A stretch of DNA of 64,000 bases from Arenicola marina (taxonomy: Eukaryota; Annelida; Polychaeta; Arenicolidae), in assembly GCA_964019135.1 (NCBI GenBank), contig CAXHSH010000416.1, forward strand, positions 62,001 to 126,000, read 5' to 3'. Each line of letters opens with the position of its first letter. The stretch's first letter is position 1. Below the pieces are notes generated by a model. That model had not been told where the DNA came from and did not search any database. It was given only the letters and a program-made list of their open reading frames with translations. A program made the translations under genes and the position numbers. This document shows positions 3,021 to 60,286 of this stretch, one piece after another.

Positions 3021-3082
3021 AGTCCAAATCTATTTTGACGCACTGCGGTGATAGGATACGTAACACCTTTGGCGACGAGAAT
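3021..3082. other. Junction between minisatellite and AT-rich satellite
   Basis: About 60 bases that resemble neither neighbouring array. No terminal repeat of the 16.6-kb element is seen here. Confidence 0.5.
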
Positions 3083-6000
3083 AAATATATATGCCACCCA
3101 ATTTATATACGCACCACAAGTCTGACCATCAAATTTAAACGTACGGCCCCTGCTATCTCAAACCATCAAATAAGTTGCATACTAGATCGCAACCAGTTTA
3201 TATGAGGTCAGCACCTATGTCAACACCTTGCTTGCGCTGCAGGCTAATCTGCATATTGAATTTTCCACCTAACGAACGTTTTCTATCTAAGAGTCCGTAT
3301 GAGAGTAAGAGTATGTGTACAATCCCATTGATATATGCCCCACAAGTCTATATATCAATTTAATTGCGTGTAGGCTCTCCAAATTTACACCTTACACGGA
3401 GTAGCATGCAGGATCTCTACCATTATATATGAGGTCAACAAGTATGTCAACACAGTGCTTTGACAGGCTAATCTGCATATGGGATTTCACTCCTCAAGGC
3501 GGTTTGTCGTTCCATTAGTAGGCCCTCAACCACCTCTGTAGAATGTATATATATACCACCCAATTTATATATGCCCCACAATTCTGACCATCAAATTTAA
3601 TTGCATGCCCCCTGTGAGTTGAAGGCCAAAACTTATAGCATACTGGATCTCTATCAACCCATATGAGGTCAACAACTATGTTAATCCACCGCGTAGACAA
3701 GCTAATATGCACATAGGGTTTCCCACCTAACGGCCGTTTATCTATCCAAAAACTTAAGTTAAACTATCCAAAGTCCCTAAACCAGCTTTGACAAAAGTAT
3801 ATATGCCACACAATTTATATATGCCCCACAAGTCTGATTATCAAGTTTAATTGCCTGTCTTCAGCGAGTTCAAGAAGATCAACTGATAGCATACTGGATC
3901 TCTATCAGCCCATATGAGATCAACAACTATATTGACCCACCGCGTTGACAGGCTAGTCTGCATATGGGATTTCCCACCATGCCGCCGTTTGTCAATCCAA
4001 GAGTTCGCCCTAAACCAGCTTTGACAAAAGTATATATATATATTTATATATGTCCCACAAGTCTGATTAACAGTCTGATGAACGGAGTTGCATACTGGAC
4101 CCTTACCAGAGCATATCAGTTCAACACCAATGTCAACACATTGCGTCGACAGGCTAATCTGCATATGGAATTTCCCCCCATGCGGCCGTTTGTCTATCCA
4201 AGAGTTAGGATTAAACAAGATTTGATAAAAGGATATGTACCGCACAATATTTATATGCCCCACAAGTCTGAGTGTCAAGTTTAATTGTAAGCCCCCATCG
4301 AGTTCACGGAGATTAACTGGAAATACTGGATCTCTACCATTACATATGAGGTCACAAACTATGTCAACATATTGCCTTGATAGGCTAATCTGCATATGGG
4401 ATGTCACTCTTCATGGCAGTTTGTCGTTCCATTAGTAGGCCCTAAACCACCTCTGTAGCAAGTATATATACCACACAATTTATAAATGCCCCAAAAATCT
4501 GACCATCAAATTTAATTGCATGCCCCCAGCGAGTTCAAAGCCATAAACTGACAGCGTACTGGATCTCTTTCAATGTATATGAGGTCAACAACTATGTTGA
4601 CCCACCGCGTTGGCAGGCCATTCTGCATATAGGGTTTCCCACCTAACGGCCGTTTATCTATCCAAATGTTCGCCCTAAACCAGCTTTAGCATATATGTCC
4701 CACAAGTCTGATTATCAAGTTTAATTGCCTGTCTTCAGCGAGTTCAAGTAGATCAACTGATAGCATACTGGATCTCTATCAGCCCATATGAGGTCAACAA
4801 CTATGTTGACCCACCGCGTTGGCAGGCTGATCTGCATATAGGGTTTCCCACCTAACGGCCGTTTATCTATCCAAAAGTTCGCCCTAAACCAGCTTTGACA
4901 AAAGCATATATGCCCCACAAGTCTGATTATCAAGTTTAATTGCCTGTCTTCAGCGAGTTCAAGTAGATCAACTGATAGCATACTGGATCTCTATCAGCCC
5001 ATATGAGGTCAACAACTAGGTTGACCCACCGCGTTAACAGGCTAGTCTGCATATGGGATTTCCCACCAGGCGGCCGTTTGTCAATCCAAGAGTGAGCAAT
5101 AAACCAGCTTTCACAAAAGTATATATACCACGCTATTTATATACGCCGCACAAGTCTGAGTATCAAGTTTAATTGTAAGCCCCCATCGAGTTCACGGAGA
5201 TCAACTGGTAACACACTGGATCTCTACCATTACATATCAGGTAAATAACTATGTCAGCACATTGCTTTGACAGGCTAATCTACATATGGGTTGTCACTCT
5301 TCAAGGGGACTTATCGTTCCATTAGTAGGCCCGAAACCACTTCTGTAGAATGTATATATACCACCCAATTTATATATGCCCCACAAGTCTGACCATCAAC
5401 TTTAATTGCATGCCCCCTGTGAGTTGAAGGCCAAAAACTGATAGCATACTGGATCTCTATCAGCCCATATGAGGTCAACAACTATGTTAATCCACCGCGT
5501 ATACAAGCTAATCTGCATATAGGGTTTCCCAACTAACGGCCGTTTATCTATCCAAAAGTTCGCCCTAAACCAGCTTTGACAAAAGCATATATGTCCCACA
5601 AGTCTGATTATCAAGTTTAATTGCCTATTTTCAGCGAGTTCAAGAAGATCAACTGATAGCATACTGGATCTCTATCAGCCCATATGAGGTCAACAACTAT
5701 GTTAATCCACCGCGTAGACAAGCGTATCGGCATATAGGGGTTCCCACCTAACGGCCGTTTATCTATCCAAAAATTGGCCCTAAACCAGCTTTGACAAAAG
5801 CATATATGCCCCACAAGTCTGATTATCAAGTTTAATTGCCTGTCTTCAGCGAGTTCAAGAAGATCAACTGATAGCATACTGGATCTCTATCAGCCCATAT
5901 GAGGTCAACAACTCTGTTAATCCACCGCGTAGACAAGCTAATCGGCATATAGGGGTTCCCACCTAACGGCCGTTTATCTATCCAAAACTTGGCCCTGAAC

Positions 6001-9000: not shown

Positions 9001-9477
9001 CAAAAGTATATGTACCGCACAATTTTTATATGCCCCACAAGTCTGAGTGTCAAGTTTAATTGTAAGCCCCCATCGAGTTCACGGAGATTAACGGAAAAAT
9101 ACGAGATCTCTACCATTACATATGAGGTCACAAACTATGTCAACATATTGCCTTGATAGGCTAATCTGCATATGGGATTTCACTCTTCATGGCAGTTTGT
9201 CGTTCCATTAGTAGGCCCTAAACCTTGTTGACCCACCGCGTTGGCAGGCTAATCTGCATATAGGGTTTCCCGACTAACGGCCGTTTATCTATCCAAAAGT
9301 TCGCCCTAAACCAGCTTTGACAAAAGCATATATGTCCCACAAGTCTGATTATCAAGTTTAATTGCCTGTCTTCAGCGAGTTCAAGAAGATCAAGTGATAG
9401 CATACTGGATCTCTATCAGCCCATATGAGGTCAACAACTATGTTGACCCACCGCGTTGGCAGGCTAATCTGCATATA
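3083..9477. repeat. AT-rich satellite, diverged edge monomers
   Basis: Roughly 28 tandem monomers of about 215-235 bp. Each has recurring landmarks in order: TTTAATTGCCTGTCTTCAGC, TACTGGATCTCT, CATATGAGGTCAACAACTAT, CACCGCGTTGACAGGCTA, TCTGCATATGGG, GGCCGTTTATCTATCCAA, AAACCAGCTTTGACAAAAG, and an AT-rich tail with CAATTTATATATGCCCCACA. A 215-bp variant lacks the ACACAATTTATATATGCC segment. Monomers vary in order, length and sequence, with no stable higher-order period, unlike the array after 27763. The first monomers (3083-3500) are the most diverged, as expected at an array margin. The array stops abruptly in mid-monomer at 9477, where the large TIR element begins. Confidence 0.95.
9474..9477. 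repeat. Putative target-site duplication TATA, left
   Basis: TATA flanks the left terminal inverted repeat and is matched by TATA at 26079-26082. The uninterrupted monomer reads GCATATAGGGTTTCCC at this point, so a single TATA in the target would explain both. Because TATA is palindromic, a 2-bp TA duplication with a longer TIR is also possible. Confidence 0.6.
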
Positions 9478-9612
9478 ACACCGAATTATTTGAAACCGGA
9501 ATAACGAAATCTCCGGAATCACGCGTTCGCGCCAAAAATTTAAATGGCCTGGCCGACACGGGAAACCAGATGTGGCGCGATGCCGAGACAGCAGGCCGGA
9601 GTTAAAATGTGG
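9478..9612 (+). repeat. Left terminal inverted repeat (135 bp)
   Basis: Starts ACACCGAATTATTTGAAACC and ends GTTAAAATGTGG. It pairs with 25944-26078 with two mismatches over 135 bases and no gaps. It contains small palindromes (ATTTAAAT, GGCCTGGCC). Confidence 0.95.
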
Positions 9613-9795
9613 TAACCCCGGCCCACACGAGTTCAGGCTCGTGAGCAATGGGTAGGCCGCAGTTATCCGCGAACAACCACGGCCCACTCAAACGGAGACT
9701 CGCAAGGAATGGCTAGGCCGTAGTTATCCGCGACAACCCCGGCCCACTCGAACCGAGGCTCGTGAGCAATGCCTGCGCCGTGGCTGTCAACCATT
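9613..9795 (+). repeat. Left subterminal tandem repeats (three units of about 60 bp)
   Basis: Units begin GGCCCAC at 9620, 9681 and 9741. They share GAGGCTCGTGAGCAATGG, TAGGCCGCAGTTATCCGCG and ACAACCCCGGCCCAC. Subterminal repeats next to a TIR often serve as transposase-binding sites in large DNA transposons; that role is only inferred. No matching set is visible beside the right TIR. Confidence 0.85.
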
Positions 9796-10375
9796 CGCTT
9801 ACAGGAACTACAGCTTTATATTTGAATGAATATTAATTACTGACAATAATCAACACTGTTTCCTGGGTAATACATCGTATGGGTTGGATGCATGGACTTG
9901 GTCTGATGTCTTATAATTCGTATGTGTTACGACAACTCCAGGTGGCGCTGATGATAGCAACATTTAATCTTGGTCTGCTGTGTCAAAGTTTTATTAGACT
10001 GTTGTGGCAATTAGGCTAGAGAGCATCATGTTTATCTGAAAACTGAATTTTGACGAATAAAACATAACATGTCACAGCCCGAGCTTGTCGATCTAATCAC
10101 CAACATAATGGGGACTGAAGAGGGGGTCCACAGCGCGCCGGCGTAAAATGAAAGATCTTATTCACCCATCAGTGCCGTATGGCGTTGATGTTTGGGAAAT
10201 GAGGAGACAAAACATATTAGTCGAGCGTGGTTTGAAAAGCACCTGTATATATATAGCTACATCCGGCTATTACTCGCTCGAAATTATTTCCAATCTAGGA
10301 CTAGAACACCTACATCGGAAAATCAGTTTAGCGAACAACAACATATTCTTTTAATGTCCGCTCTCAGACATTCAG
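9796..10375. other. Non-repetitive non-coding stretch inside the element
   Basis: Moderately AT-rich sequence without a convincing gene. The 68-codon and 117-codon frames starting at 10148 and 10192 overlap each other, and the longer one runs into the poly-C repeat, so I do not treat them as genes. I see nothing recognisable here. Confidence 0.5.
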
Positions 10376-10510
10376 GGGCACCCCCCCCCTCCCCCACCCC
10401 CCGCCAGGTGTGTGTAATAACGCCCTCTCCCTCTAAGGGGCACCCGGGGACCACCCCCCTCCGCCCCCCACCAGTTGTGTGTAATAATGCCCCCCCCCCC
10501 TCCTCACGCG
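10376..10510 (+). repeat. C-rich tandem duplication with homopolymer C tracts
   Basis: Two related units, each running from GGGGCACC through C-rich sequence and CCAGGTGTGTGTAATAACGCC (CCAGTTGTGTGTAATAATGCC in the second). The first starts near 10376 and the second near 10437. Long C runs make length errors likely. Confidence 0.8.
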
Positions 10511-10731
10511 GTCCATCTATATTGCCATATTATCTTAACTTATGACGGGGCGCGCACAGTCTGCTTGGCAGGCTTGGTAACATTGCGCCTAGCTTGATTT
10601 ATATGTTGGGGTGGAGCACCAAAGCCGCTTGTCGGGAGGTTTGGGGCGCCAGATTTGATCTTTCCCAACTCTATCTAACAGTTCTATGCCCTCCGTTGGT
10701 ACCGAAATGGCGTGACTCGGTCGTTCGCCGT
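10511..10731. other. Short unique stretch before the duplicated block
   Basis: No repeat, RNA gene or convincing frame is visible. Position 10732 is the first base matching position 1 of the window, but the duplication may extend further left than the window shows. Confidence 0.5.
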
Positions 10732-11620
10732 GCGTACGCTTTCACACCGTACAAGCAGCAGCAGTCAACCCATTTGTAACTTTCAAGGCCACGCATATAT
10801 GTCCAAATCAATTGTACACATGCGCAATTCATTTTGACATAGTTCCAAGTAGAATTAGACATTTGTACAAATATTTCCGGTGTACACATACGCCAAAATC
10901 ATTGGCTAATGGCCCGGGACGGCAGACACGTGGAGATCCGGCAGAGCATGGGGGTCAATCGTGATCCGAGGGGTCAAATAGGTATTTGATGTGCAAATCG
11001 AGATCAGTGGAATCGGGATCCGATCAGTCGAAAAGGGATAGGTAGGGTTTCATCGAGATTCATAGGGTACAATCGGATCTAAAGCATGCAATCGAGGTCC
11101 GGAGGGGCCACTCGGGAGTGGTAGGACAGACAAGTATGGTAAAATCGGGTTCCGGAGTCGAATCGGGATCCGAGGGTTTGAATTGGGATCCGAGGGATCG
11201 AATCGGGAAGCAGTCGAGCACATCGGGATCCAGATGCTGCATTCGATATGGTCGAATCGGGATCCATGGATGTCTAGGGTCGACCCCGATCCTACGGATC
11301 TCGATTCGACCGGATCCCGTTCGATCATACGGATCTAGATTAGACCGTTGACATCAAAATTGTACCTTATTAGACCCCTCGGATCTTGATTGGATCCCTG
11401 GGGTTCTCATTCGACTCCGAGATTCACTATTGGACCCAATGGCTACATTCGATCCCTCGGATGACGATTGAACTCCGGCTTCTATATCGTACAACGGTTA
11501 AATCATAACCCACATTACGAAAGGGTCTACAGTAGTCATGAACACCATGACTGTACCCTACGGGTGACGGGTCTCTTAGATTGACGATAATTAATTACCG
11601 GCCAGGACGGGCTCCTTTGA
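10732..11620. repeat. Duplicated non-tandem block, copy 2 (inside the TIR element)
   Basis: Matches 1-889 at offset 10,731 with about seven single-base differences and no noticed gap. It includes the same GATC-rich inverted repeat (arms 11251-11265 and 11296-11310). It ends at the same junction, CCAGGACGGGCTCCTTTGACG, into the 57/58-bp minisatellite. Confidence 0.9.
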
Positions 11621-14600
11621 CGTCACCACGGGTCTGTCAAATGGTTGACAACTGGTCAATAGGTAGGACGGGACACTTGCCCACCACGGGTCTGTCAGAT
11701 GATTGACAACTGGTCAATGGGTAGGACGGGACACTTGCCCACCACGGGTCTGTCAGATGGGTTACAACTGGTCAATGGGTAGGACGGGACACTTGACCAC
11801 CACGTGTCTGTCAGATGGTTGACAACTGGTTAATGGGTAGGACGGGACACTTGCCCACCACGGGACTGTCAGATGGTTGACAACTGGTCAATGGGTAGGA
11901 CGGGACACTTGACCACCACGGGTCTGTCAGATGGGTTACAACTGGTCAATGGGTAGGACGGGACACTTGACCACCACGGGTCTGTCAGATGGGTTACAAC
12001 TGGTCAATGGGTAGGACGGGACACTTGACCACCACGGGTCTGTCAGATGGTTGACAACTGGTTAATGGGTAGGACGGGACACTTGCCCACCACGGGTCTG
12101 TCAGATAGGTTACAACTGGTTAATGGGTAGGACGGGACATTTGCCCACCACGGGTCTGTCAGATGGGATGCAACTGGTCAATGGGAAGGACGGGACACTT
12201 GCCCACCACGGGTCTGTCAGATGGTTGACAACTGGTCAATGGGTAGGACGGGACACTTGCCCACCACGGGTGTGTCAAATGGTTGACAACTGGTCAATAG
12301 GTAGGACGGGACACCAGCCCACCACGGGTCTGTCAGATGGTTACAACTGGTCAATGGGTAGGACGGGACACTTGACCACCACGGGTCTGTCAGATGGGTT
12401 ACAACTGGTCAATGGGTAGGACGGGACACTTGACCACCACGGGTCTGTCAGATGGTTGACAACTGGTCAATGGGTAGGACGGGACACTTGCCCACCACGG
12501 GTCTGTCAGATGGGTTACAACTGGTCAATGGGTAGGACGGGACACTTGACCACCACGGGTCTGTCAGATGGGTTACAACTGGTCAATGGGTAGGACGGGA
12601 CACTTGACCACCACGGGTCTGTCAGATGGGTTACAACTGGTCAATGGGTAGGACGGGACACTTGACCACCACAGGTCTGTCAGATGGGTTACAACTGGTC
12701 AATGGGTAGGACGGGACACTTGACCACCACGGGTCTGTCAGATGGTTGACAACTGGTCAATGGGTAGGACGGGACACTTGCCCACCACGGGTCTGTCAGA
12801 TGGTTGACAACTGGTCAATGGGTAGGACGGGACACTTGCCCACCACGGGTCTGTCAGATGGGTTACAACTGGTCAATGGGTAGGACGGGACACTTGACCA
12901 CCACGTGTCTGTCAGATGGTTGACAACTGGTTAATGGGTAGGACGGGACACTTGCCCACCACGGGTCTGTCAGATGGTTGACAACTGGCCAATGGGTAGG
13001 ACGGGACACTTGACCACCACGGGTCTGTCAGATGGGTTACAACTGGTCAATGGGTAGGACAGAACACTTGACCACCACGGGTCTGTCAGATGGGTTACAA
13101 CTGGTCAATGGGTAGGACGGGACACTTGACCACCACGGGTCTGTCAGATGGTTGACAACTGGTTAATGGGTAGGACGGGACACTTGCCCACCACGGGTCT
13201 GTCAGATGGGTTACAACTGGTTAATGGGTAGGACGGGACATTTGCCCACCACGGGTCTGTCAGATGGGATACAACTGGTCAATGGGAAGGACGGGACACT
13301 TGCCCACCACGGGTCTGTCAGATGGTTGACAACTGGTCAATGGGTAGGACGGGACACTTGACCAGCACGGGTCTGTCAGATGGGTTACAACTGGTCAATG
13401 GGTAGGACGGGACCCTTGACCACCACGGGTCTGTCAGATGGGTTACAACTTGTCAATGGGTAGGACGGGACACTTGACCACCACGGGTCTGTCAGATGGG
13501 TTACAACTGGTCAATGGGTAGGACGGGACACTTGACCACCACGGGTCTGTCAGATGGTTGACAACTGGTCAATGGGTAGGACGGGACACTTGCCCACCAC
13601 GGGTCTGTCAGATGGTTGACAACTGGTCAATGGGTAGGACGGGACACTTGACCACCACGGGTCTGTCAGATGGGTTACAACTGGTCAATGGGTAGGACGG
13701 GACACTTGACCACCACGGGTCTGTCAGATGGGTTACAACTGGTCAATGGGTAGGACGGGACACTTGACCACCACGGGTCTGTCAGATGGGTTACAACTGG
13801 TCAATGGGTAGGACGGGACACTTGACCACCACGGGTCTGTCAGATGGGTTACAACTGGTCAATGGGTAGGACGGGACACTTGACAACCACGGGTCTGTCA
13901 GATGGTTGACAACTGGTCAATGGGTAGGACGGGACACCTGCCCACCACGGGTCTGTCAGATGGTTACAACTGGTCAATGGGTAGGACGGGACACTTGCCC
14001 ATCACGGGTCTGTCAGATGGTTACAACTGGTCAATGGGTAGGACGGGACACTTGACCACCACGGGTATGTCAGATGGTTACAACTGGTCAATGGGTAGGA
14101 CGGGACACTTGCCCACCACGGGTCTGTCAGATGGGTTACAACTGGTCAATGGGTAGGACGGGACACTTGACCACCACGGGTCTGTCAGATGGGTTACAAC
14201 TGGTCAATGGGTAGGACTTGCCCCTTGACCACCACGGGTCTGTCAGATGGTTGACAACTGGTTAATGGGTAGGACGGGACACTTGCCCACCACGGGTCTG
14301 TCAGATGGGATACAACTGGTCAATGGGTAGGACGAGACACTTGACCACCACGGGTCTGTCAGATGGGTGACAACTGGTCAATGGGTAGGACGGGACACTT
14401 GCCCATCACGGGTCTGTCAGATGGTTACAACTGGTCAATGGGTAGGACGGGACACTTGCCCACCACGGGTCTGTCAGATGGGTTACAACTGGTCAATGGG
14501 TAGGACGGGACACTTGACCACCACGGGTCTGTCAGATGGTTGACAACTGGTCAATGGGTAGGACGGGACACTTGCCCATCACGGGTCTGTCAGATGGTTA

Positions 14601-17600
14601 CAACTGGTCAATGGGTAGGACGGGACACTTGCCCACCACGGGTCTGTCAGATGGGTTACAACTGGTCAATGGGTAGGAAGGGACACTTGCCCATCACGGG
14701 TCTGTCAGATGGTTACAACTGGTCAATGGGTAGGACGGGACACTTGCCCACCACGGGTCTGTCAGATGGGTTACAACTGGTCAATGGGTAGGACGGGACA
14801 CTTGCCCACCACGGGTCTGTCAGATGGTTACAACTGGTCAATGGGTAGGACGGGACACTTGACCACCACGGGTCTGTCAGATGGGTTACAACTGGTCATA
14901 GGGAAGGACGGGACTCTTGCCCACCACGGGTCTGTCAGATGGTTGACAACTGGTCAATGGGTAGGACGGGACACTTGCCCACCACGGGTCTGTCAGATGG
15001 TTACAACTGGTCAATGGGTAGGACGGGACACTTGCCCACCACGGGTCTGTCAGATGGTTACAACTGGTCAATGGGTAGGACGGGACACTTGCCCACCACG
15101 GGTCTGTCAGATGGGTTACAACTGGTCAATGGGTAGGAAGGGACACTTGCCCATCACGGGTCTGTCAGATGGGTTACAACTGGTCAATGGGTAGGACGGG
15201 ACACTTGCCCACCACGGGTCTGTCAGATGGGTTACAACTGGTCAATGGGTAGGAAGGGACACTTGCCCATCACGGGTCTGTCAGATGGTTACAACTGGTC
15301 AATGGGTAGGACGGGACACTTGCCCACCACGGGTCTGTCAGATGGGTTACAACTGGTCAATGGGTAGGACGGGACACTTGCCCACCACGGGTCTGTCAGA
15401 TGGTTACAACTGGTCAATGGGTAGGACGGGACACTTGACCACCACGGGTCTGTCAGATGGGTTACAACTGGTCATAGGGAAGGACGGGACTCTTGCCCAC
15501 CACGGGTCTGTCAGATGGTTGACAACTGGTCAATGGGTAGGACGGGACACTTGCCCACCACGGGTCTGTCAGATGGTTACAACTGGTCAATGGGTAGGAC
15601 GGGACACTTGCCCACCACGGGTCTGTCAGATGGTTACAACTGGTCAATGGGTAGGACGGGACACTTGCCCACCACGGGTCTGTCAGATGGGTTACAACTG
15701 GTCAATGGGTAGGAAGGGACACTTGCCCATCACGGGTCTGTCAGATGGGTTACAACTGGTCAATGGGTAGGACGGGACACTTGACCACCACGGGTCTGTC
15801 AGATGGTTGACAACTGGTCAATGGGTAGGACGGGACACTTGCCCATCACGGGTCTGTCAGATGGTTACAACTGGTCAATGGGTAGGACGGGACACTTGCC
15901 CACCACGGGTCTGTCAGATGGGTTACAACTGGTCAATGGGTAGGACGAGACACTTGACCACCACGGGTCTGTCAGATGGTTGACAACTGGTCAATGGGTA
16001 GGACGGGACACTTGCCCATCACGGGTCTGTCAGATGGTTACAACTGGTCAATGGGTAGGACGGGACACTTGCCCACCACGGGTCTGTCAGATGGGTTACA
16101 ACTGGTCAATGGGTAGGAAGGGACACTTGACCACCACGGGTCTGTCAGATGGTTGACACTGGTCAATGGGTATGACGGGACACTTGCCCACCACGGGTCT
16201 GTCAGATGGGTTACAACTGGTCAATGGGTAGGACGGGACACTTGACCACCACGGGTCTGTCAGATGGGTTACAACTGGTCAATGGGTAGGACGGGACACT
16301 TGACCACCACGGGTCTGTCAGATGGGTTACAACTGGTCAATGGGTAGGACGGGACACTTGACCACCACAGGTCTGTCAGATGGGTTACAACTGGTCAATG
16401 GGTAGGACGGGACACTTGACCACCACGGGTCTGTCAGATGGTTGACAACTGGTCAATGGGTAGGACGGGACACTTGCCCACCATGGGTCTGTCAGATGGT
16501 TGACAACTGGTCAATGGGTAGGACGGGACACTTGCCCACCACGGGTCTGTCAGATGGGTTACAACTGGTCAATGGGTAGGACGGGACACTTGACCACCAC
16601 GTGTCTGTCAGATGGTTGACAACTGGTTAATGGGTAGGACGGGACACTTGCCCACCACGGGTCTGTCAGATGGTTGACAACTGGTCAATGGGTAGGACGG
16701 GACACTTGACCACCACGGGTCTGTCAGATGGGTTACAACTGGTCAATGGGTAGGACGGGACACTTGACCACCACGGGTCTGTCAGATGGTTGACAACTGG
16801 TTAATGGGTAGGACGGGACACTTGCCCACCACGGGTCTGTCAGATGGGTTACAACTGGTCAATGGGTAGGACGGGACACTTGCCCACCACGGGTCTGTCA
16901 GATGGTTGACAACTGGTCAATGGGTAGGACGGGACACTTGCCCACCACGGGTCTGTCAGATGGGTTACAACTGGTCAATGGGTAGGACGGGACACTTGAC
17001 CACCACGTGTCTGTCAGATGGTTGACAACTGGTTAATGGGTAGGACGGGACACTTGCCCACCACGGGTCTGTCAGATGGTTGACAACTGGTCAATGGGTA
17101 GGACGGGACACTTGACCACCACGGGTCTGTCAGATGGGTTACAACTGGTCAATGGGTAGGACGGGACACTTGACCACCACGGGTCTGTCAGATGGGTTAC
17201 AACTGGTCAATGGGTAGGACGGGACACTTGACCACCACGGGTCTGTCAGATGGTTGACAACTGGTTAATGGGTAGGACGGGACACTTGCCCACCACGGGT
17301 CTGTCAGATGGGTTACAACTGGTTAATGGGTAGGACGGGACATTTGCCCACCACGGGTCTGTCAGATGGGATACAACTGGTCAATGGGAAGGACGGGACA
17401 CTTGCCCACCACGGGTCTGTCAGATGGTTGACAACTGGTCAATGGGTAGGACGGGACACTTGCCCACCACGGGTCTGTCAGATGGTTACAACTGGTCAAT
17501 TGGTAGGACGGGACACTTGACCACCACGGGTCTGTCAGATGGTTACAACTGGTCAATGGGTAGGACGGGACACTTGACCACCACGGGTCTGTCAGATGGT

Positions 17601-18033
17601 TACAACTGGTAAATGGGTAGAACGGGACACTTGCCCACCAATTGTCTGTCAGATGGGTTACAACTGGTCAATGGGTAGGACTTGCCCCTTGACCACCACG
17701 GGTCTGTCAGATGGTTGACAACTGGTCAATGGGTAGGACGGGACACTTGCCCACCACGGGTCTGTCAGATGGTTACAACTGGTCAATGGGTAGGACGGGA
17801 CACTTGATCACCACGGGTCTGTCAGATGGTTGACAACTGGTCAATGGGTAGGACGGGACACTTGCCCACCACGGGTCTGTCAGATGGTTGACAACTGGTC
17901 AATGGGTAGGACGGGACACTTGCCCACCACGGGTCTGTCAGATGGGTTACAACTGGTTAATGGGTAGGACGGGACACTTGACCACCACGGGTCTGTCAGA
18001 TGAGTTACAACTGGTTAATGAGTTAAAACACCT
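11621..18033 (+). repeat. 57/58-bp minisatellite, main array (about 110 units)
   Basis: Uninterrupted head-to-tail units of the same family as 890-2000, ending in a degenerate unit (AACTGGTTAATGAGTTAAAAC). Variant units show nested block duplication. A CCACGTG variant at 11800, 12901 and 17003 is followed in each case exactly 338 bases later by a CATTTGCCC variant (12138, 13239, 17341); a further CCACGTG lies at 16597. A rare ACAGG variant occurs at 12671 and 16367. Frames of 60-160 codons here are repeat artefacts. Confidence 0.97.
14600..15782 (+). repeat. 576-bp (ten-unit) perfect tandem duplication within the minisatellite
   Basis: About 14600-15206 and 15176-15782 repeat at a period of 576 bases with no difference that I noticed. 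The shared variants include GGTCATAGGGAAGGACGGGA and two AGGAAGGGACAC units. The perfect match across ten otherwise variable units points to a very recent duplication or an assembly duplication. Confidence 0.85.
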
Positions 18034-18144
18034 TCTTATTATCAAGTGGGATTTCTTAAGCAATTGGGATTTATATGAAATGTTTTCATGTTTTCAAATC
18101 TGGCCCGTGTCACTTATTTCCATTGGGTTTCTCATATTATTTGA

Positions 18145-18303
18145 GACCCGGGCCTTGATATCAAGGCCCAGGTCGCCGTTTTACAGCTTTTCCTGCAGAC
18201 TCACACCTCCGACCCAGGCCTTGATATCAAGGCCCGGGTCGGTGTGAGTCTTCAGGAAAAGCTGTAAAACCGCGACCCAGGCCTTGATATCAAGGCCCGG
18301 GTC
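18145..18303. repeat. Compound palindrome: three 30-bp palindromes joined by inverted arms
   Basis: Near-perfect 30-bp palindromes (GACCCGGGCCTTGATATCAA and onward) lie at 18145-18174, 18211-18240 and 18274-18303. The linkers 18175-18210 and 18241-18273 are reverse complements of each other over about 30 bases with one or two mismatches (ACAGCTTTTCCTG against CAGGAAAAGCTGT). The whole 159 bases is therefore one large palindrome centred near 18225, able to form a long hairpin or cruciform. It begins about 110 bases past the end of the minisatellite. Confidence 0.95.
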
Positions 18304-20585
18304 GGAGGATCGAGATGCGTTTCGGAGCCACACTGTATCCAGCCCAAGCCACTTCACCTCTCCGCAGGTGGCCTGTCGCTATCAGCCTATTAAGTTAAGT
18401 ACCACCACCCATCCCGCCCCGCCCCCCGTCGGTGTACGTGCGACCTGGCCGCCGATTTACTACAGGTTGGCCAATACAAGTACTTGAGGCGAGGGTGCAA
18501 TAATCGTATGGTTGGGTGAATCACGCCCGAAAAATAATTCCATGTGGCTTGTAGTACATTGTCTTAGGAGGCAAACTTCAGCCGGCGAAATCGTTTGACG
18601 TCGCTAGAGATGGTATTAAGCGGTTTTACTTTCAAGACAAAAAAGAGATGATGTGAAAACTATTTATTAAGCTGACACTAACACTAGTAACAGGATGCAC
18701 GATTACACAACACATTGCCTTTCAATTACATCATGCTAATGCAGCTAATCCCAAGACCCCCCCCCCTTCCCCTTCCCTTCACCGCCACACTCCTCCGCGG
18801 CCGACTTAATCGGCGGCCAGGTTGAAGCGCTGCCAAAGCGTACGTGCCCCCCGCCCCCTCCCTCTCGCCCTTCACTAACCACCAGACACCTACACACCCC
18901 ACGTTTGAGTTAATTACTATCTGTCTACCCTACCTCATGTCTTAAATCAAGCTCACCAAGAGGGCATCAGGACATCTGGCAGCCGCGCCTCCTTATATAC
19001 CCCTCCCACACCCCCGCCCCTCCCTCCACAACATATCTGTCTGGACCTAGCAGCCCTAGCAGAGATATTGTTCTCGTTACTGGAGCAAATAGTGCAGTTG
19101 GTTCATTTTCACCAACTTAGGCAACAGCTACCATCACTATGATTTCATAAGTAGGTATAATAAAACCCAGGCCGCTGATATAATTTCTCGGCCGCGCCCT
19201 AATTGACGCCAAAACGACGCTTCTCTCAAGAAAGTATTCTCTTTCATATTTTGCCTAACTGATTGCAGGAATCACTGTAAATGAAAAACAGTAACATCTG
19301 GGATATCATATGCCACATATACTAGAATGTAACGATCGACGTTACGGACAGAGTATGAAGGTTAATAATGTATATAGAGAAAAGGTACATTCGCCAAAAG
19401 CAATTAAGCCCGTGCAGCATGTGCAGCTAATGAATATCCAATTAAAGAACCTGAAAACCCTCCCTAGCCCCTTATCTGTGCTTTGCCAGCCCGAATGTAA
19501 TCCCCATAGCCCCTCGCTGTTAGTTGCTCCAGCCAGCCCGAACATCCACATATTTAAATGTCACGTAATTATTAAGCCTCCACCTGGCCACACACCCACA
19601 CACACACATCCGCGTAGTTTAAACGTATACCAAGGTTCGTTCTCTGTCGCGGGTCAAGGTAAAATTCATGTTTTTGAAATGGGGGGCGTAGTGATGTAGT
19701 TAGTAGCAAGCTGATTGTGTGCAATGCGTGTGCAATGTGTGCGGCAAATTGTTTACAAATCAAGGGGTGTATGAAAATCTGGCTAGGGCTCAAGTCACCA
19801 GGATCTTGGAGGCCCAGCTTGTGTGGCTTGTGACGTTTTCTTTCAGGGTTGATGCACTCACTCCTGTAGCAGCTTGATCACGCCTGACACCCAGATCAGA
19901 GGAAAGATAAACCAGATGCTCTCTTAGCCCCTCCACACCCCGCCCCATTCCATAATAACGTTATAATAGGCCCTCCCACCCGCAACTCCCCCATCTCTCC
20001 TTCGTCTGAACCCATACACACGCTCTAATAGCTGCACCCCCCCCCCCACCCCACGCCGCGCAGGGAGTAAAGAAAGTGCTTCACGCATGAAACGCAGCCC
20101 CGTAGAGACCCCTGTGTCATGTAGCGTACTCTCTGGCGCGTCTGCGCCCGGCCGCCACCTTTCTATTCAGATAAGATGGACATCGGACGCAGGTCAGCCA
20201 GTGCAGAGGGCGGGAAACTGGTCAACGGTTCGCTAATGTGCATGCATGGTAGTTGAATACCATGAAACGTGCGTCGATGATCAGTCCTTCATTATCAGCA
20301 CTCAGCATTATGGCGCAGGGTAGTATACACATGTAGGGTGGGGGGGGGATTACCGAACGAAGCCCCAGCAAACACGTACCAAGAAATGCCTAAGACCGCA
20401 TTAAATTTAAGCGAGACTAACTAATTATAACTTATAATATATAAGTATCTATATAAATATATATTTGTATATGTGTTGGCTAATACTTCAGTCAGGCGTC
20501 CTGATCTCTAATAAGCGCCGGTCTAATATTTGCGAGGACACATAACTTGTATTTTGAGCGAACAACACATACAGCGGAGCCACGG
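18304..20585. other. Non-coding interior of the element with C tracts
   Basis: No gene that I can defend. Features seen: a 15-base inverted pair, ACCTGGCCGCCGATT at 18443-18457 and AATCGGCGGCCAGGT at 18808-18822; poly-C or C-rich tracts near 18760, 18845, 19005 and 20037; a poly-G tract near 20340; and an AT-rich stretch at 20425-20480. A 129-codon plus-strand frame at 19310-19699 has low-complexity Pro/His-rich content and no recognisable domain. Confidence 0.6.
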
Positions 20586-20845
20586 ATCGGGGTAACCCCC
20601 TAATTTATAGCGAACACTCGGTCATAGCTATATTCAGCCCCCCCCCCCCTCGCCTTTTTTCTTAACCCACGTGGATCGATAATTCCAAGCTTAGCTAAGG
20701 GAACATTTGGTCATGGCTATATTCAGCATATGAGAATTTTCCCCCACCCCACTTCCCATGTCCTTTAACCCACGTGGATCGGTAATCGCATGCTAAGCTA
20801 AGCGGAAACTTGATCATAGGTACCTATATTTAGCGACTTTAACAT
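20586..20845 (+). repeat. Diverged tandem repeats of about 100 bp (three partial copies)
   Basis: GCGAACACTCGGTCATAGCT at about 20609, GGGAACATTTGGTCATGGCT at about 20699 and a third diverged start at about 20801 each lead into TATATTCAGC or TATATTTAGC. The first two are followed by a C-rich tract and then TTAACCCACGTGGATCG. The copies differ mainly in the length of the C tract. Confidence 0.7.
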
Positions 20846-21276
20846 GGCCAATCCCATTATGAAGCCTCGATACGCCAAACGACGAACGACGCGGTGACGC
20901 TTAATCCATCATATAACTCGGTCGATGTACATAGTCGCAGTCGCTACTAACCCCTAAGTTTCGTTTTCCTAAAGCTATGCTTGACGTGCTCGTATATTTT
21001 GGTATCTAGTCCCCCCCCTCCCCCTCCTCTCCCTGCCAGGGTCACAATTCGTAGTAGGGGTCTCCACTGCTACGCTTCTCTGCTTTGTGTTACAGGGGTA
21101 GGTAAACCACCGCCGTAAAAATATATGTTACACTGAATAGATGTTTGTAGATTTTGTAAATTACATTCCCTATCAAGTTCTAAGGAATGAAAAAAAATAG
21201 GTTTGATTACTATTGCAATTTGTGGGGCCTGACCCTTGATTCACCACAGGCTGCCTGGAATATTAGGGATAAAGGT
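20846..21276. other. Non-coding stretch, nothing recognised
   Basis: Contains a C-rich tract at about 21010-21035 and a short poly-A run near 21190. No frame, RNA gene or mobile element is recognised. Confidence 0.5.
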
Positions 21277-21350
21277 CGCTTGCGTTAAAGGGATTATATT
21301 GCAGTAAACGCACCGCTTGCGTTAAAGTGATTATATTGCAGTAAACGCAC
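21277..21350 (+). repeat. Two copies of a 37-bp repeat with internal dyad
   Basis: CGCTTGCGTTAAAGGGATTA and onward at 21277-21313 is repeated at 21314-21350 with a single difference. Each copy carries TGCGTT and AACGCA as inverted arms around a central loop. Confidence 0.9.
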
Positions 21351-21406
21351 GTGTAAACAATATAAGCAACTATGCGGGGATGATATTAGTGGCTTATCTG
21401 TATCTT

Positions 21407-21469
21407 CAATTTTAAAAGACGTCATATCACATCGTGACGCATAAATGCAAGATATGTAGTCTTTTAAAA
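21407..21469. repeat. Inverted repeat with 12-bp arms
   Basis: ATTTTAAAAGAC near 21409 and GTCTTTTAAAAT near 21457 are perfect reverse complements about 36 bases apart. The arms are AT-rich. No T-run or gene end suggests a terminator. Confidence 0.75.
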
Positions 21470-21871
21470 TCGCAATGGGTGTGTTATTTCAAGAACCACC
21501 TTAGTTCAGGGCAGACTAAACAATAGGTGAGCGATGTGATACCCCAGCGGTTGTCAGCGATTAGGTACCATTATCGCTGGAGACGGGAGGCAGCAGGGTC
21601 CACATGTTTCGGTGGTATACCAGGGTACGCAGCAATGGGTGAGGTATGCACATTTAGACATGGGCCGATTAAAGGATGTGCCGCGATCAGATAAGAGATG
21701 CATACGGGCTGGCTAGCACGCTGGGCACTTCCCTTGGGAAAAACCTACATATATATCTATGTTTGCGGAACAGCGTATAAGTGGCCTTTCTAACATTTTG
21801 GCCGTCATTTTCACAGCCCAAAGAATTACCTATCTTCTTTTTTCTCTGAATGCATGTCTCAGATTTTATCG

Positions 21872-21911
21872 GGCTAGGATACTTCAAAGCTGGCTAGGAT
21901 ACTTCAAAGCT
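21872..21911 (+). repeat. 20-bp perfect tandem duplication
   Basis: GGCTAGGATACTTCAAAGCT occurs twice head to tail, at 21872-21891 and 21892-21911. It looks like a simple slippage duplication. Confidence 0.95.
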
Positions 21912-22189
21912 GCTTGTGCACGGTATTGAGCCTGACTCAATTGAGTATTGACTGTTCGGTTAATTGCTATTCGCTTTCTACGTTGATCGCATTTTATAGT
22001 TGTGAAAAATATGCCGTCCCTTCCACGATTACGACTGTCGACTGAACACCGACAGCAAGATCTCTTACTTAAGCGCCGCGCGAGAGTGAAACACCGAAAC
22101 GATCGGAAGTGTATCCGTAAGCGCAATCGTTATATAAAGACGAAATAACATTACTGCACGTGAATAACCACGTTGGTTATGCCGCAGGG

Positions 22190-22680
22190 GAGCAGGACAA
22201 CTCCCCTCCGGAAAATTCCCCCCCAGATAATCCCCCCTCCCGGACAACTCCCCCCCCTCCCGACAATTCCCCCCCGGACAATTCCCCCATAGGACAATTC
22301 CCCCCCGGACAACTCCCACCCGGACAATTCCCCCCCTGACAATGCTCCCCTAGGACAAGTCCCCCCCGGAAAACTCCCCCCCGGACAATTCCCCCCCGGA
22401 CAACTCCCCCCCCCCCCCGGACAACTCCTCCCCGGACAATTCCCCCCTAGGACAATTCCCCTCGGACAACTCCCCCAGGACAATTCCCCCCCGGAAAATT
22501 CCCCCCCGGTCAGTCCCCACCCCCCCAGATAATTCCTCTCCGGACAACTCCCCCCAGACAATTTCCCCTAGGACAATTCCCCCCAGGACAACTTCCCCAT
22601 ACAATTCCCCCCCGGACAATTCTTCCCCGGTCAATTCCCCCCTAGGACAATTCCCCCCCCCCCTCCCCCGAGACAATATC
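22190..22680 (+). repeat. C-rich minisatellite (about 15-bp unit, GGACAATTCCCCCC)
   Basis: More than thirty degenerate units of GGACAATTCCCCCC or GGACAACTCCCCCC, some joined by CCTAGG. Minus-strand frames through it encode only Gly/Glu/Leu/Ser/Cys-rich repeats and are not genes. The opposite strand is G-rich, with runs of four to seven G, and could form G-quadruplexes. Confidence 0.95.
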
Positions 22681-23268
22681 TCCGACACTGTCACCCACAT
22701 CATCCCAAACGGAGACGCCCCCCCTCCTCCCGCCAATCCCCACCGGTCAAACCCCAACTCAGTACCACAAACACTGTATGTCGTGCGTGTGAAGGAGCTT
22801 GGCGCTATCTGTTCTGTAACACCCGTTAGGTTGCATTGTGGATGTGTAGGTTTCATATTATATTTCCATGTACACTGAGAAGTTCTGTCTCAACAAGCCC
22901 ACAATAAGCCCTGGGCCTTCTTTAACATTAGAATTTGGAACCACATCAATCGCGCAGACGTATTAGAGAGACCCAGCGGCTATGAAGGGGTGGGGCGGGG
23001 GGGTGGGGGGTGGCCTATGTTATCGCGATCACACAAATCCTCCTATAGGTCAGATTCGCGGGCGAAATTAAGTTTGTCAGTTTTTTTTTAGGCTCCCAGA
23101 ATTTTTGAGTATCAATACTGAAAAAGTTGTGACCATTCAAAGCCGACGTGCGAGTTAATATCAAATATATCTGAATAATTCATACTCCTGTGCCGGTATG
23201 GGTATTTTGGATACTTAGGCCTGTCTGGTGGGGAAGGGCGTCGGGGGTTTCCAGGCTCGAGCAGTCCT
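22681..23268. other. Non-coding spacer between C-rich arrays
   Basis: Contains a G-rich tract at about 22988-23012 and a T run near 23080. No gene or known element is recognised. Confidence 0.5.
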
Positions 23269-23490
23269 CGATTGTCTGGGGTGGGCATTGTCCGGGGGTG
23301 GCGTGGGAGGGGGGTTGTCTTGCTCCTGTTGTCAGAGAGAAAAGATTTGCCGGGGAGCAGGACAACCCCCCCCCCCAGACAATACCCCCCCTCCCCACCT
23401 AGGACAATTCTTCCCCGCTCGTTCACCCTGACACCCCACTCCTTCCTTCGGACAATTGCTTGCCCCCCGACAACTCCCCCACAGGAAAAT
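23269..23490. repeat. Small inverted array of the C-rich minisatellite
   Basis: G-rich units (ATTGTCTGGGGTGGG, ATTGTCCGGGGG) at 23269-23320 face C-rich units (GACAACCCC, GACAATACCCC, GGACAATTC) at 23354-23490. The arms GGGGTTGTCTTGCTCC (23311-23326) and GGAGCAGGACAACCCC (23354-23369) pair with one mismatch. GGGGAGCAGGACAAC also occurs at about 22186, at the start of the larger array. Confidence 0.85.
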
Positions 23491-24697
23491 TCGGACTGCT
23501 TTGAATGTGCGTTAACTCGCATGTCGGTTTTGAGTGGTCACAACTTGCTGGGTATTGATACTAGAGACCTCCGAGCGCCTGTAAAAACGAGCAAAATGAA
23601 AGTCGCACGCGAATCTGTCCTTGCTAAGACCAATTATGGTGTATAATATACACCATCCTTGCTAAAACGCATTGTGTTTGGCGCGATAGCGCTTCGAAGA
23701 GAAGCATGCACCCCCCCCACCCCCCACCTGACCCCACCCCACACCGCCCCACACCACAATGGGCAATGGACGTCACAGCAGGCGCGTGCTCCTTTATGCT
23801 AGAGGCCTTGGGGGGCACTACCTTTATGATGGTGCGGGTATGCCGCCCATACGATAATGGTCATATGAGAGCCAGAGAATCTAAAATACAAATAAAATAT
23901 TTAAAAAAATTGTCATCGCGAGATAAATGTTTGGTTAATGGACGATAGAGATAATGGGTACATACGACATCGAGGGAAAATGCAGGTTTCTGCTCAGGGG
24001 AAAGAAGAACAGGGGAAGAAAGGTGTTATTTATGTGATACGTATTTGTTTACCTAGCTATACATAGTGCCCCCCGCACCCCCCCCCCCCCCCGCCTCGGC
24101 AGTCGATTAGTCGTCAAGACGAAAGTAACTTTCGTTGACCAAATGCACTTTAGGTACTTTAGTAAGTAAATGTGTTACATAAAATACAGTTTGGTTTGGA
24201 CGGAAGTAAATTAGGTTCGCCATATGACTTTTTGTCACAACGTGGGCAGAAGCCTATAATTTTGTATATGGGTGTTACCTCACTCGTGGCTGCGCACATG
24301 GCGTGCCAAGGTGGAAGGAAATACATATTTTCTCAGGCACCACTCGCACCCCATTGGCGGGGAAGGGGGGGGGGGCACTAGATGTATATAGGTATATACA
24401 TATGTGTCGCCCAACTGACCCTTTTTTTCGCCATTTTTCTCTCAATCCCCGGAGCAAAAATCTGGAATTCCTCTCGATGTGCCCATCTGAGACTGAAGTA
24501 TTTTTTTAATTGCAGCTATTGACTATATATTCCAGTTCATGTCGAAAGTGTTCAAATAATTAACCACCATAAACTTCGCCATGACTGCCAGTGTCTATCC
24601 ATCCCGGATGTCCTCCCGAAGTATTCCCACGTGTCGGAAGGAGAAGGGGGGGTGGGGGGCTTGTCCGTTTGTGGGCGTGTGTTTCCAGGGGGTGGTT
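23491..24697. other. Non-coding stretch between C-rich arrays
   Basis: Apart from the palindrome at 23636-23656 I see only C-rich tracts (about 23708-23755 and 24068-24095), a G run near 24365 and AT-rich sequence near 23880-23915. Short frames here lack domains and overlap on both strands. Confidence 0.5.
23618..23668. repeat. Perfect 21-bp palindrome between 13-bp direct repeats
   Basis: ATGGTGTATA-A-TATACACCAT (23636-23656) has perfect 10-base arms around one central base. It lies between TCCTTGCTAAGAC (23618-23630) and TCCTTGCTAAAAC (23656-23668), direct repeats with one difference. This could be the scar of a small insertion or a simple duplication. Confidence 0.85.
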
Positions 24698-24983
24698 ATC
24701 GTCCAGGGGGGAATTGTCCGGTGGCAACTTGCCGGTGGGGACTGGCCGAAGGGGAACATTTTCCAGGTGGGGGATTGTAGTGGGAGGGGGCGGTTGTCCG
24801 GGGGGGAACTGACTGGGGGGGAATTGTCCGGGGGCAATTGTCTGGGGGGAAGTTGTCTCGTAGGGGGGAGTTGTCCGGGGGCAAGTTGTCATAGGGGGGA
24901 ATTGTCCGGGGGGGAATTGTCCTAGGGGGGAATTGTCCGGGGGGGAATTGTCCGGGGGAGAATTTTCCGGGGGGGAGTTGTCC
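24698..24983 (-). repeat. C-rich minisatellite, inverted array (GGGGGGAATTGTCC on the plus strand)
   Basis: About eighteen degenerate units of GGGGGGAATTGTCC and GGGGGCAATTGTC, the reverse complement of the unit at 22190-22680, including the same CCTAGG junction. The two arrays face each other about 2 kb apart. Frames here on either strand are repeat artefacts. Confidence 0.95.
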
Positions 24984-24989
24984 AAGAAC

Positions 24990-25190
24990 CGGACAGTGAT
25001 AGTGAGACACAAGTGGAGAGGGGGAGAGAGAACCATACATTGGGCGGGGGCAGACAATGTGGGAGACAGATCGAGAGAAGGAAAGGGATACACACATGGG
25101 CAACTTGACGATGGAAAGAGGGAGAGACGTAATAGAGATAAAAACGGAGCTATTAGTAGGCATAAATAGAGAGAAAGAGACATACATAGT
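24990..25190 (+). repeat. Purine-rich (GA-rich) low-complexity tract
   Basis: The plus strand is dominated by A and G with many GAGAGA, GGAGAG and GGGAGA runs. The long minus-strand frame at 24560-25240 crosses this and the neighbouring C-rich array, giving Ser/Leu-rich and Pro-rich low-complexity peptide, and is not accepted as a gene. Confidence 0.8.
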
Positions 25191-25229
25191 CTTCTAGTGT
25201 AGGATGTTTTCTTGCTTCCAGTCGTTCCT

Positions 25230-25265
25230 CTACATTGCATCCCCTACATTGCATCCCCTACATTG
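25230..25265 (+). repeat. 14-bp tandem repeat, 2.6 copies
   Basis: CTACATTGCATCCC is repeated twice, followed by CTACATTG. Confidence 0.95.
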
Positions 25266-25515
25266 ATTGATATCTTGCCACCGAGCACCAAAGTTCGCTA
25301 TGTGTATCATGGACATAACGTAGTTTGGGGGCCAAATTTAACCGTTCGCTCTTGCCCGATAGCCCATGCGACTATACCGCCGTCTAGTAGAGGCAGGCGA
25401 GTCCACACACAGAACTGTCGCTGCATGTCGAAACGAAACTGGAGACGATAAAGCTGTCACCAATGGTGTGAAATACCGCGACGCCGTCAGGCAAAGCTGG
25501 AATGACTTCTCAGCG

Positions 25516-25540
25516 AGAGGAGGGAGGAGGGAGGAGGGAG
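25516..25540 (+). repeat. GGAGGGA microsatellite
   Basis: Three and a half copies of a 7-bp GGAGGGA unit, with closely spaced G runs compatible with a quadruplex. Confidence 0.9.
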
Positions 25541-25943
25541 TCTGTGGGGCGGATTGAGGATAGACGCTGGGCCGGGGAAGTAGAGAGAAACCCACGAACA
25601 TGGCTGTAAGGTCTATATGTGTAGCACAGAGTTGTTTTTATGTTTAAGAAGTACAAACTTATTTTGTGAGGTAGGTTGATTGGTGGACCCCCCTCCCCCT
25701 TTTTTACAGAATAACGCTATCTGAGGCATGCCCCCCCCAGTCGCAAGTTTGAATATACCCACCCCCCCCATTTTTAAATTCCTGGATCCGCTCCTAACAA
25801 ATTATGTCGGAGTCTTTTGTCCAATATCATGTCACAAGTCTGCAGTTATGATAGGAATACATTGTATGATACAGATCCCAGACCGCTTGTTCATCAAAAT
25901 AAAGTATGATGATTGTCTTAAATTAAACCATGTATAATCATAT
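25541..25943. other. Non-coding stretch before the right TIR
   Basis: Contains C tracts at about 25688 and 25729-25769. I see no gene and no counterpart of the left subterminal 60-bp repeats. Confidence 0.5.
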
Positions 25944-26078
25944 CCACATTTTAACCCCGGCCTGCTGTCTCGGCATCGCGCCACAACTGGTTTCCCGTGT
26001 CGGCCAGGCCATTTAAATTTTTGGCGCGAACGCGTGATTCCGGAGATTTCGTTATTCCGGTTTCAAATAATTCGGTGT
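25944..26078 (-). repeat. Right terminal inverted repeat (135 bp)
   Basis: Begins CCACATTTTAACCCCGGCC and ends TTCAAATAATTCGGTGT. It is the reverse complement of 9478-9612 at 133 of 135 positions. Confidence 0.95.
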
Positions 26079-26082
26079 TATA
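26079..26082. repeat. Putative target-site duplication TATA, right
   Basis: Matches TATA at 9474-9477. The satellite then continues as GAGGGTTTCCC where other monomers read GGGTTTCCC, so two extra bases are present at this junction. Confidence 0.6.
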
Positions 26083-27762
26083 GAGGGTTTCCCAACTAAG
26101 GGCCGTTTATCTATCCAAAAGTTCGCCCTAAACCAGCTTTGACAAAAGCATATATGTCCCACAAGTCTGATTATCAAGTTTAATTGCCTGTCTTCAGCGA
26201 GTTCAAGAAGATCAACTGATAGCATACTGGATCTCTATCAGCCCATATGAGGTCAACAACTATGTTAATCCACCGCGTAAACAAGCTAATCGGCATATAG
26301 GGTTTCCCACCTAACGGCCGTTTATCTATCCAAAAGTTCGCCCTAAACCAGCTTTGACAAAAGTGTATATGCCACACAATTTATATATGCCCCACCAGTC
26401 TGATTATCAAGTTTAATTGAATGTCTTCAGCGAGTTCAAGAAGATCAACTGATAGCGTACTGGATCTCTGCCAGTATATAGGAGGTCAACAACTATGTTG
26501 ACCCACCGCGTTGACAGGCTAGTCTGGATATGGGATTTCCCACCATGCGGCCGTTTGTCAATCCAAGAGTTCGCCCTAAACAAGCTTTTAACAAAAGTAT
26601 ATATACCACACAATTTATATATGCCGCACAAGTCTGATTAACGGTCTGATGAACGGAGTTGCATACTGGATCCTTACCAGAGCATATCAGTTCAAAACCA
26701 ACGTCAACACATTGCGTCGACAGGCTAATCTGCATGTGGAATTTCCCCCCATGCGGCCGTTTGTCTATCCAAGAGTTAGGATTAAAGAAGATTTGACAAA
26801 AGTATATGTACCGCACAATTTTTATATGCCCCACAAGTCTGAGTGTCAAGTTTAATTGTAAGCCCCCATCGAGTTCACGGAGATTAACGGAAAAATACTG
26901 GATCTCTACCATTACATATGAGGTCACAAACTATGTCAACACATTGCCTTGATAGGCTAATCTGCATATGGGATTTCACTCTTCATGGCAGTTTGTCGTT
27001 CCATTAGTAGGCCCTAAACCACCTCTGCAGCAAGTATATATACCACACAATTTGTATATGCCCCAAAAATCTGACCATCAAATTTAATTGCATGCCCCCA
27101 GCGAGTTCAAAGCCATAAACTGACAGCGTACTGGATCTCTTTCAATGTATATGAGGTCAACAACTATGTTGACACACCGCGTTGGCAGGCTAATCTGCAT
27201 ATAGGGTTTCCCACCTAACGGCCGTTTATCTATCCAAAAGTTCGCCCTAAAACAGTTTTGACAAAAGTATATATGCCCCACAAGTCTGATTATCAAGTTT
27301 AATTGCCTGTCTTTAGCGGGTTCAAGAAGATCAACTGATAGCATACTGGATCTCTATCAGCCCATATGAGGTCAACAACTATGTTAATCCACCGCGTAGA
27401 CAAGCTAATCGCTATATAGGGGTTCCCACCTAACGGCCGTTTAACTATCCAAGAGTTCGCCCTGAATCAGCTTTGACAAAAGCATATATGCCACACAATT
27501 TATATACGCCCCACAAGTCTGATCATCAAGTTTAATTGCCTGTCTTCAGCGAGTTCAAGAAGATCAACTGATAGCGTACTGGATCTCTGCCAGTATATAT
27601 GAGGTCAACAACTATGTTGACCCACCGCATTGACAGCTTAGTCTGCATATGGGATTTCCCACCATGCGACTGTTTGTCCATCCAAGAGTTAGCAATAACC
27701 ATCTTTCACAAAAGTATATATACCACACAATTTATATACGCCCCACAAGTCTGATTATCAAG
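26083..27762. repeat. AT-rich satellite, irregular monomers right of the insertion
   Basis: About seven monomers of the same family as 3083-9477, with comparable irregular order and divergence and no 903-bp period. The similarity to the left segment supports the view that 9478-26078 was inserted into one continuous edge zone. Confidence 0.93.
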
Positions 27763-30815: not shown

Positions 30816-30840
30816 GACCATGCGGCCGTTTGTCTATCCA
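30816..30840. repeat. Hybrid monomer B/C joined at CATGCGGCCGTTTGTC
   Basis: The first half is B type (GATTTCCGACCATGCGGCCG) and the second half C type (TCTATCCAAGAGTTAGGATT). The switch falls in a stretch common to both monomers, as expected for unequal crossover or gene conversion. Copies occur near 37573, 41628 and 48373. Confidence 0.85.
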
Positions 30841-60285: not shown

Positions 60286-60286
60286 A

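Follow-up and report, generated by a model that had tools for sequence, protein, structure and literature searches.

A 16.6-kb element with paired inverted ends in a satellite array of Arenicola marina: probable recent insertion of a large non-autonomous transposon

Results

An element with paired inverted ends interrupts a satellite array

We analysed a stretch of 64,000 nucleotides from Arenicola marina (contig CAXHSH010000416.1; hereafter the window), which is the sole sequence of this genome behind all of the counts made within it. From position 3083 onward the window is occupied by a satellite array, interrupted by a short stretch at 60145-60525 and by the subject of this report, a 16.6-kb element bounded by terminal inverted repeats (TIRs). 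Probing with the satellite consensus left three non-satellite stretches of at least 40 bp, at 1-3082, 9477-26084 and 60145-60525, and at the element the satellite match stops at 9476 and starts again at 26085. The TIR arms (9478-9612 and 25944-26078) are identical in inverted orientation at 133 of 135 positions, with mismatches at TIR positions 93 and 123, and their similarity breaks off sharply at 135-137 bp. Outside each 135-bp TIR stands TATA, at 9474-9477 and 26079-26082. Directly observed at this locus are near-identical paired ends, flush with the two junctions at which the satellite breaks off and resumes, and a short direct target-site duplication, TA or TATA, on both sides, as in a class II TIR transposon.

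Among inverted exact 30-mers in the whole window, 134 of 140 ordered matches pair TIR with TIR, and the other 6 lie between opposed C-rich arrays. A 17-bp terminal probe, searched over the whole window at up to 3 mismatches, matched the two element ends only, with 0 mismatches at each; shuffles averaged 0.20 matches at the same tolerance, and 2 of 100 shuffles had two. A chance origin of the 133/135 match is excluded. A preliminary description of this locus had reported 135-bp inverted ends at this same identity, resumption of the satellite monomer at the insertion point and a single insertion event. Our re-measurement returned the identical figure, the satellite does stop and restart at the element edges, and one event is well supported by the junctions together with the paired TIRs. 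Observed/expected CpG ratios were 1.63 for the left TIR, 1.16 for a 0.9-kb interior block and 0.44 for a 58-bp minisatellite. The TIR shows no CpG decay, as would suit an end that is young or protected, although 138 bp is little sequence for such a comparison.

The target-site duplication is more likely TA than TATA

TATA is its own reverse complement, and so can be assigned either to the duplication or to the TIR. The element was removed in silico under four readings (no duplication, TA, TATA, and TA in a TATATA target), and the joined product was compared with the satellite. The restored monomer measures 213, 215, 217 and 219 bp, respectively. Intervals between anchor motifs in the satellite (187 in total, one of them spanning the element) are most commonly 233 bp (74), 232 bp (44), 205 bp (37) and 215 bp (13), and none is 213, 217 or 219 bp; the interval that immediately precedes the element (9246 to 9461) is itself 215 bp. 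Over a 75-bp joined stretch, the edits to the nearest satellite match number 6, 3, 4 and 6 in the same order of readings. The length of the satellite site, taken from a regular expression allowing up to 24 letters, is 17 letters in 137 of 142 sites, 14 letters in 4, 18 letters in 1 and 19 letters in none, one extra match inside the right TIR having been left out of the count; removal of the element leaves 17 letters under the TA reading and 19 under the TATA reading.

The TATA reported in the preliminary description does flank both ends, but a 4-bp duplication is not the best parse, since monomer length, site length and edits all favour TA. We regard TA as the likelier duplication with reasonable rather than high confidence, because this is one insertion at a single locus. 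Under this parse the element extends from 9476 to 26080, with termini TAACACCG...CGGTGTTA. The predicted empty site would be CTGCATAGAGGG under the TA reading and CTGCATATAGAGGG under the TATA reading.

Satellite context

A higher-order repeat of 903 bp, made of four monomers (205+232+233+233), occupies 51285-59085, where the satellite is 97-99% identical to itself at that offset, and by analogy this region may be likened to the uniform core of a centromere-type array. A short stretch starting at about 27.9 kb has the 903-bp period too, at the same self-identity, and 26085-27285, directly to the right of the element, has none. To the left of the element lie 6.4 kb of mixed monomers, and higher-order repeats start roughly 1.5 kb to its right; the element thus sits in irregular satellite.

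Further to the right, a near-exact duplication of satellite relates about 29480-41080 to 40290-51890 at an offset of 10,803 bp (200-bp bins mostly 100%), and is either a very recent amplification or an assembly duplication. The satellite also holds a small element of long terminal repeat (LTR) type at 60145-60529, with two 141-bp TG...CA repeats identical at 140 of 141 positions, a 103-bp interior that begins ATGG and ends in a purine-rich stretch (GAGGGGGGAATG), and a 4-bp duplication, CCAG. A tRNA B-box pattern was found in both LTRs and an A-box pattern in the left LTR only, the B-box match being weak because that pattern matches 85 times on the plus strand of the window. Terminal-repeat retrotransposons in miniature (TRIMs) of the Helenus type, with tRNA-like LTRs and 4-bp duplications in animals, are described in an excerpt of PMC10886601, and the small element fits this type. 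Against such an assignment, Rfam gave four matches below the gathering score at the small element, none of them to tRNA, and ARAGORN gave none.

Interior of the element

The features of the element and of the left window edge are listed in Table 1. The interior described previously, comprising a duplicated block, about 6.4 kb of minisatellite, a palindrome and opposed C-rich arrays, was located in full. Within the minisatellite the longest exact segmental duplication is 612 bp, at an offset of 576 bp. The fold of 18143-18306, around the near-palindrome, has a free energy of -85 kcal/mol with DNA parameters. The inner inverted repeat is possibly an old nested element. An edge motif, GGGGAGCAGGACAA, opens C-rich stretches at both 22187 and 23352, a hint that the C-rich arrays may be a repeated and possibly mobile unit; inspection by eye for arms of a nested foldback element found no matching duplication beside 22187 and 24986.

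Table 1. Positions of the element's ends and interior features, and of related sequence at the left window edge. TRF, Tandem Repeats Finder.
Feature	Coordinates	Strand	Remarks
Left target-site duplication TA (preferred parse)	9474-9475		TATA 9474-9477 under alternative
Left TIR	9476-9612	+	137 bp including terminal TA, 135/137 identical to right; 135 bp (133/135) from ACACCG at 9478
61-bp repeat, about 2.6 copies, just inside left TIR	9614-9771	+	TRF; no such array listed at right end
0.9-kb block	10732-11624	+	Many GGATCC-like motifs, in either orientation; window 1-893 is 99.3% identical
58-bp minisatellite array	11624-18020	+	110.7 copies (TRF); internal segmental duplications
Near-palindrome	18145-18303		63-bp arms, 94% complementary; built on GGCCTTGATATCAAGGCC
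C-rich array	22194-22660	+	Unit of about 15 bp, GGACAATTCCCCCCC; TRF
Inner inverted repeat	23047-23621		Arms 23047-23158 and 23512-23621 (75%); small C-rich stretches within
C-rich array, opposed to 22194-22660	24688-24986	-	TRF
Right TIR	25944-26080	-	Includes terminal TA; 135 bp to 26078 without TA
Right target-site duplication TA (preferred parse)	26081-26082		TATA 26079-26082 under alternative
Partial second occurrence of block and minisatellite	1-2000	+	No TIR in view; cut by window start, then 200-N gap
Diverged minisatellite relatives, opposite orientation	2201-3010	-	Near satellite edge

Block and minisatellite recur at the left edge of the window

The block and minisatellite occur a second time on the left side of the element, about 7.5 kb away. 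The two copies of the block differ by 6 mismatches in 893 positions without gaps, and at the left edge, too, the block leads into minisatellite. A unit cutter returned 19 units from the left array and 101 pieces from the element array, of which 8 still contain two or three units uncut. Exact counterparts of 15 of the 19 left units are present among the element pieces, in an order that is not conserved, and the element array has segmental duplications of its own. The sequence of the block has thus been kept, and that of the array is in turnover. Since no TIR is in view beside the block and minisatellite at 1-2000, part of the interior may have come from the neighbourhood by capture; block and minisatellite were probably captured from, or are shared with, local heterochromatic DNA.

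The minisatellite at the left edge is broken by a 200-N gap at 2001-2200, which lies between the plus-strand array and a diverged minus-strand array. From 2201 to 3083, comparison with the element gave 860 matches, all in its minisatellite part and none elsewhere. The 17-bp terminal probe (up to 3 mismatches) found no TIR terminus in 1-3082.

Coding content and relatives

For the Pfam scans, frames were translated with X at stops and matches were accepted at E values up to 1, with no positive control for stop read-through; minisatellite frames (11651-18019) were excluded. The six frames of 18020-26080 matched no family, and neither did the three forward frames of 2201-3090. In the six frames of 9479-11650 the sole match was HupE_UreJ_2 (E 0.078; score 13.1 bits, cut-off 24.5), which we take as chance. 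No Pfam transposase was found in the element copy, the minisatellite lying outside the scan and the scan having no positive control. The longest open reading frames (ORFs) of four non-array stretches were equalled or exceeded in 55, 33, 14 and 43 of 100 dinucleotide shuffles, so that all four are within range. The preliminary description had called the element a cargo-only DNA transposon; that view fits the scanned parts, in which there was neither a protein domain nor an ORF of unusual length, and has one complete copy behind it.

Over the whole window, Rfam gave nothing at gathering score and ARAGORN, run with the bacterial code, gave no tRNA. Exact-pattern scans of viral contigs (TIR, satellite, minisatellite and C-rich unit) and of bacterial and archaeal contigs (TIR) returned 0 matches in all five scans, which says little for a eukaryotic element because these collections are viral and prokaryotic. 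A search of the literature found no description of the present element, which is not proof of its absence from print.

Discussion

The 16.6-kb element is probably a large class II TIR transposon of the non-autonomous kind that inserted recently and was moved in trans by a TA-targeting transposase. In the mechanism that we propose, a transposase encoded elsewhere would bind the 137-bp ends, and the element would be cut out of its donor site and joined at the TA within CTGCATA, with duplication of that TA. The interior block and minisatellite would have been captured from local heterochromatin, or be shared with it, and unequal exchange or slippage would have gone on reshaping the minisatellite afterwards. 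A TA target would make the Tc1/mariner (ITm) group a likelier source of the transposase than other superfamilies. Because no transposase was seen, we suggest that the element works like an ITm element and do not claim that it is one.

Several considerations weigh against this interpretation. Within the window there is one complete copy, with no second paired TIR, empty allele or transposase, and the start of the TIR, TAACACC, matches no Tc1/mariner family that could be named. The efficacy of cut-and-paste transposition is described as falling significantly above a cargo of 6 kb in an excerpt of PMC6431247, which also reports 100-200 kb moved in constructs; the present element is 16.6 kb. The gap between TA and TATA is modest, at 3 versus 4 edits from one locus, and TA needs one junction substitution (T to G in the target) where TATA needs a 2-bp insertion. 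The same type of element might instead carry a true 4-bp duplication of TATA, with termini ACACCG...CGGTGT, and have been moved by one of the superfamilies whose insertions duplicate 4 bp. Each flank does carry a perfect TATA, and this was the parse first proposed, but it implies a monomer of 217 bp and a site of 19 letters, both missing from the 187 intervals and 142 sites, as well as the additional edit, and the superfamilies that duplicate TTAA (piggyBac and Kolobok) are ruled out by the flank sequence; we consider a TATA duplication unlikely.

Other explanations concern how the unit was assembled. Two small TIR elements in opposite orientation, of the kind known as miniature inverted-repeat transposable elements (MITEs), could have come to flank a heterochromatic block, the pair then moving as a unit. 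Such a composite would suit both the sharp end of TIR similarity at 135-137 bp and the fact that 1-2000 holds block and minisatellite without a visible TIR. No inner MITE terminus is seen at either end, however, as the 17-bp probe (up to 3 mismatches) found the outer ends only; clean satellite junctions would still demand transposition of the whole unit, and we think this origin decidedly improbable. It is somewhat more credible, if still doubtful, that window 1-3082 is a second, rearranged copy of the transposon, in which case block and minisatellite would be native to the element family and not captured here. The 893 bp at 99.3% identity and the common minisatellite units are what such a copy would show, and the left end of that locus lies beyond the window. 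Against it, there is no TIR terminus near the right end of 1-3082, the match of 2201-3083 to the element is confined to minisatellite, and the first monomer after 1-3082 scores 69% against the satellite consensus, a value that would suit the edge of an old array, this last being weak evidence because some interior monomers of 186 and 205 bp score only 66-78%. Finally, a misjoined contig could have put an unrelated segment within the satellite, and the N gap and the near-exact satellite duplication at the 10,803-bp offset do mark the region as hard to assemble. The element, however, contains no N, and a misjoin does not make inverted ends flush with both junctions together with a duplication, so that an assembly artefact is very improbable.

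It is debated how minisatellite and satellite arrays spread to heterochromatic sites where they were absent before. If a 6.4-kb tandem array was brought into satellite as one unit by a clean insertion, this would directly exemplify array transport, and the readable satellite flanks make the locus apt for typing presence and absence alleles. The element also poses the question of how 16.6 kb without its own genes is mobilised. As a speculation that we rate as unlikely, the element might be one of a family of TIR transposons, very large and without coding sequence, that collect heterochromatic blocks and minisatellites and plant them at irregular satellite edges, serving as array vehicles between heterochromatic sites.

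Comparison with known systems

The present element shares with non-autonomous Tc1/mariner (ITm, IS630-related) elements a TA duplication under the preferred parse, TIRs, and the lack of its own transposase, and differs in its 16.6-kb size and in the terminal TAACACC with no named family match. Such a size is far above that usual for non-autonomous Tc1/mariner elements, and those elements called MITEs are, as the name says, miniature. Tc1/mariner insertions make 2-bp TA duplications (PMC10045372).

Other superfamilies fit the junctions less well. IS3EU and GingerRoot elements have TA..TA termini, as here under the preferred parse, with 6-bp duplications (PMC10045372); the 6-bp flanks TGCATA (9470-9475) and TAGAGG (26081-26086) differ. 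ISL2EU duplicates AT at A|AT|T (PMC4482050), whereas the AT parse here is T|AT|A (9474-9477 and 26080-26082). PIF/Harbinger makes a 3-bp TWA duplication (PMC4482050), and no placement of the ends yields the same TWA triplet on both flanks. piggyBac and Kolobok require duplication of TTAA, and the flanks here are TATA.

Size and enclosed DNA have separate precedents. Pack-MULEs carry host DNA, including gene fragments, between TIRs and are moved in trans (PMC6431247); they resemble the present element in the DNA enclosed by TIRs and in mobility in trans, and differ in that no gene is seen here. The enlarged CACTA families of Chondrus, at 16-20 kb, are alike in size (PMC6431247), but hold 4-5 ORFs.

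Tandem repeats within TIR elements have also been described. Tetris, a foldback element of Drosophila virilis, has TIRs as long as 1,735 bp that contain tandem repeats of about 220 bp, and makes 8-10 bp duplications (PMC4079207). As there described, it is likewise a non-coding, non-autonomous TIR transposon with tandem repeats tied to satellite-like heterochromatic arrays; the present element differs in its simple TIRs, internal array and 2- or 4-bp duplication. A foldback assignment was rejected, as the TIR is only 135-137 bp, TRF finds no array in it, and the duplication is of 2 or 4 bp instead of 8-10 bp. MITEs with internal tandem repeats are known from Xenopus (Hikosaka and Kawahara 2004, cited in PMC6947457) and the clam Donax (Satovic and Plohl 2013), and a role of transposable elements in minisatellite spread is known from rice (Inukai 2004, cited in PMC6947457), the three works being cited across PMC6947457 and PMC8268682. 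These elements are like the present one in having internal tandem repeats dispersed by transposition, and differ in that here a 6.4-kb array lies within 16.6 kb. The preliminary description had considered such an element unusual. In principle it is not, as TIR elements carrying tandem repeats are already in print; on the strength of a single copy, what is unusual is a length of 16.6 kb without a recognised gene and an internal array of about 6.4 kb.

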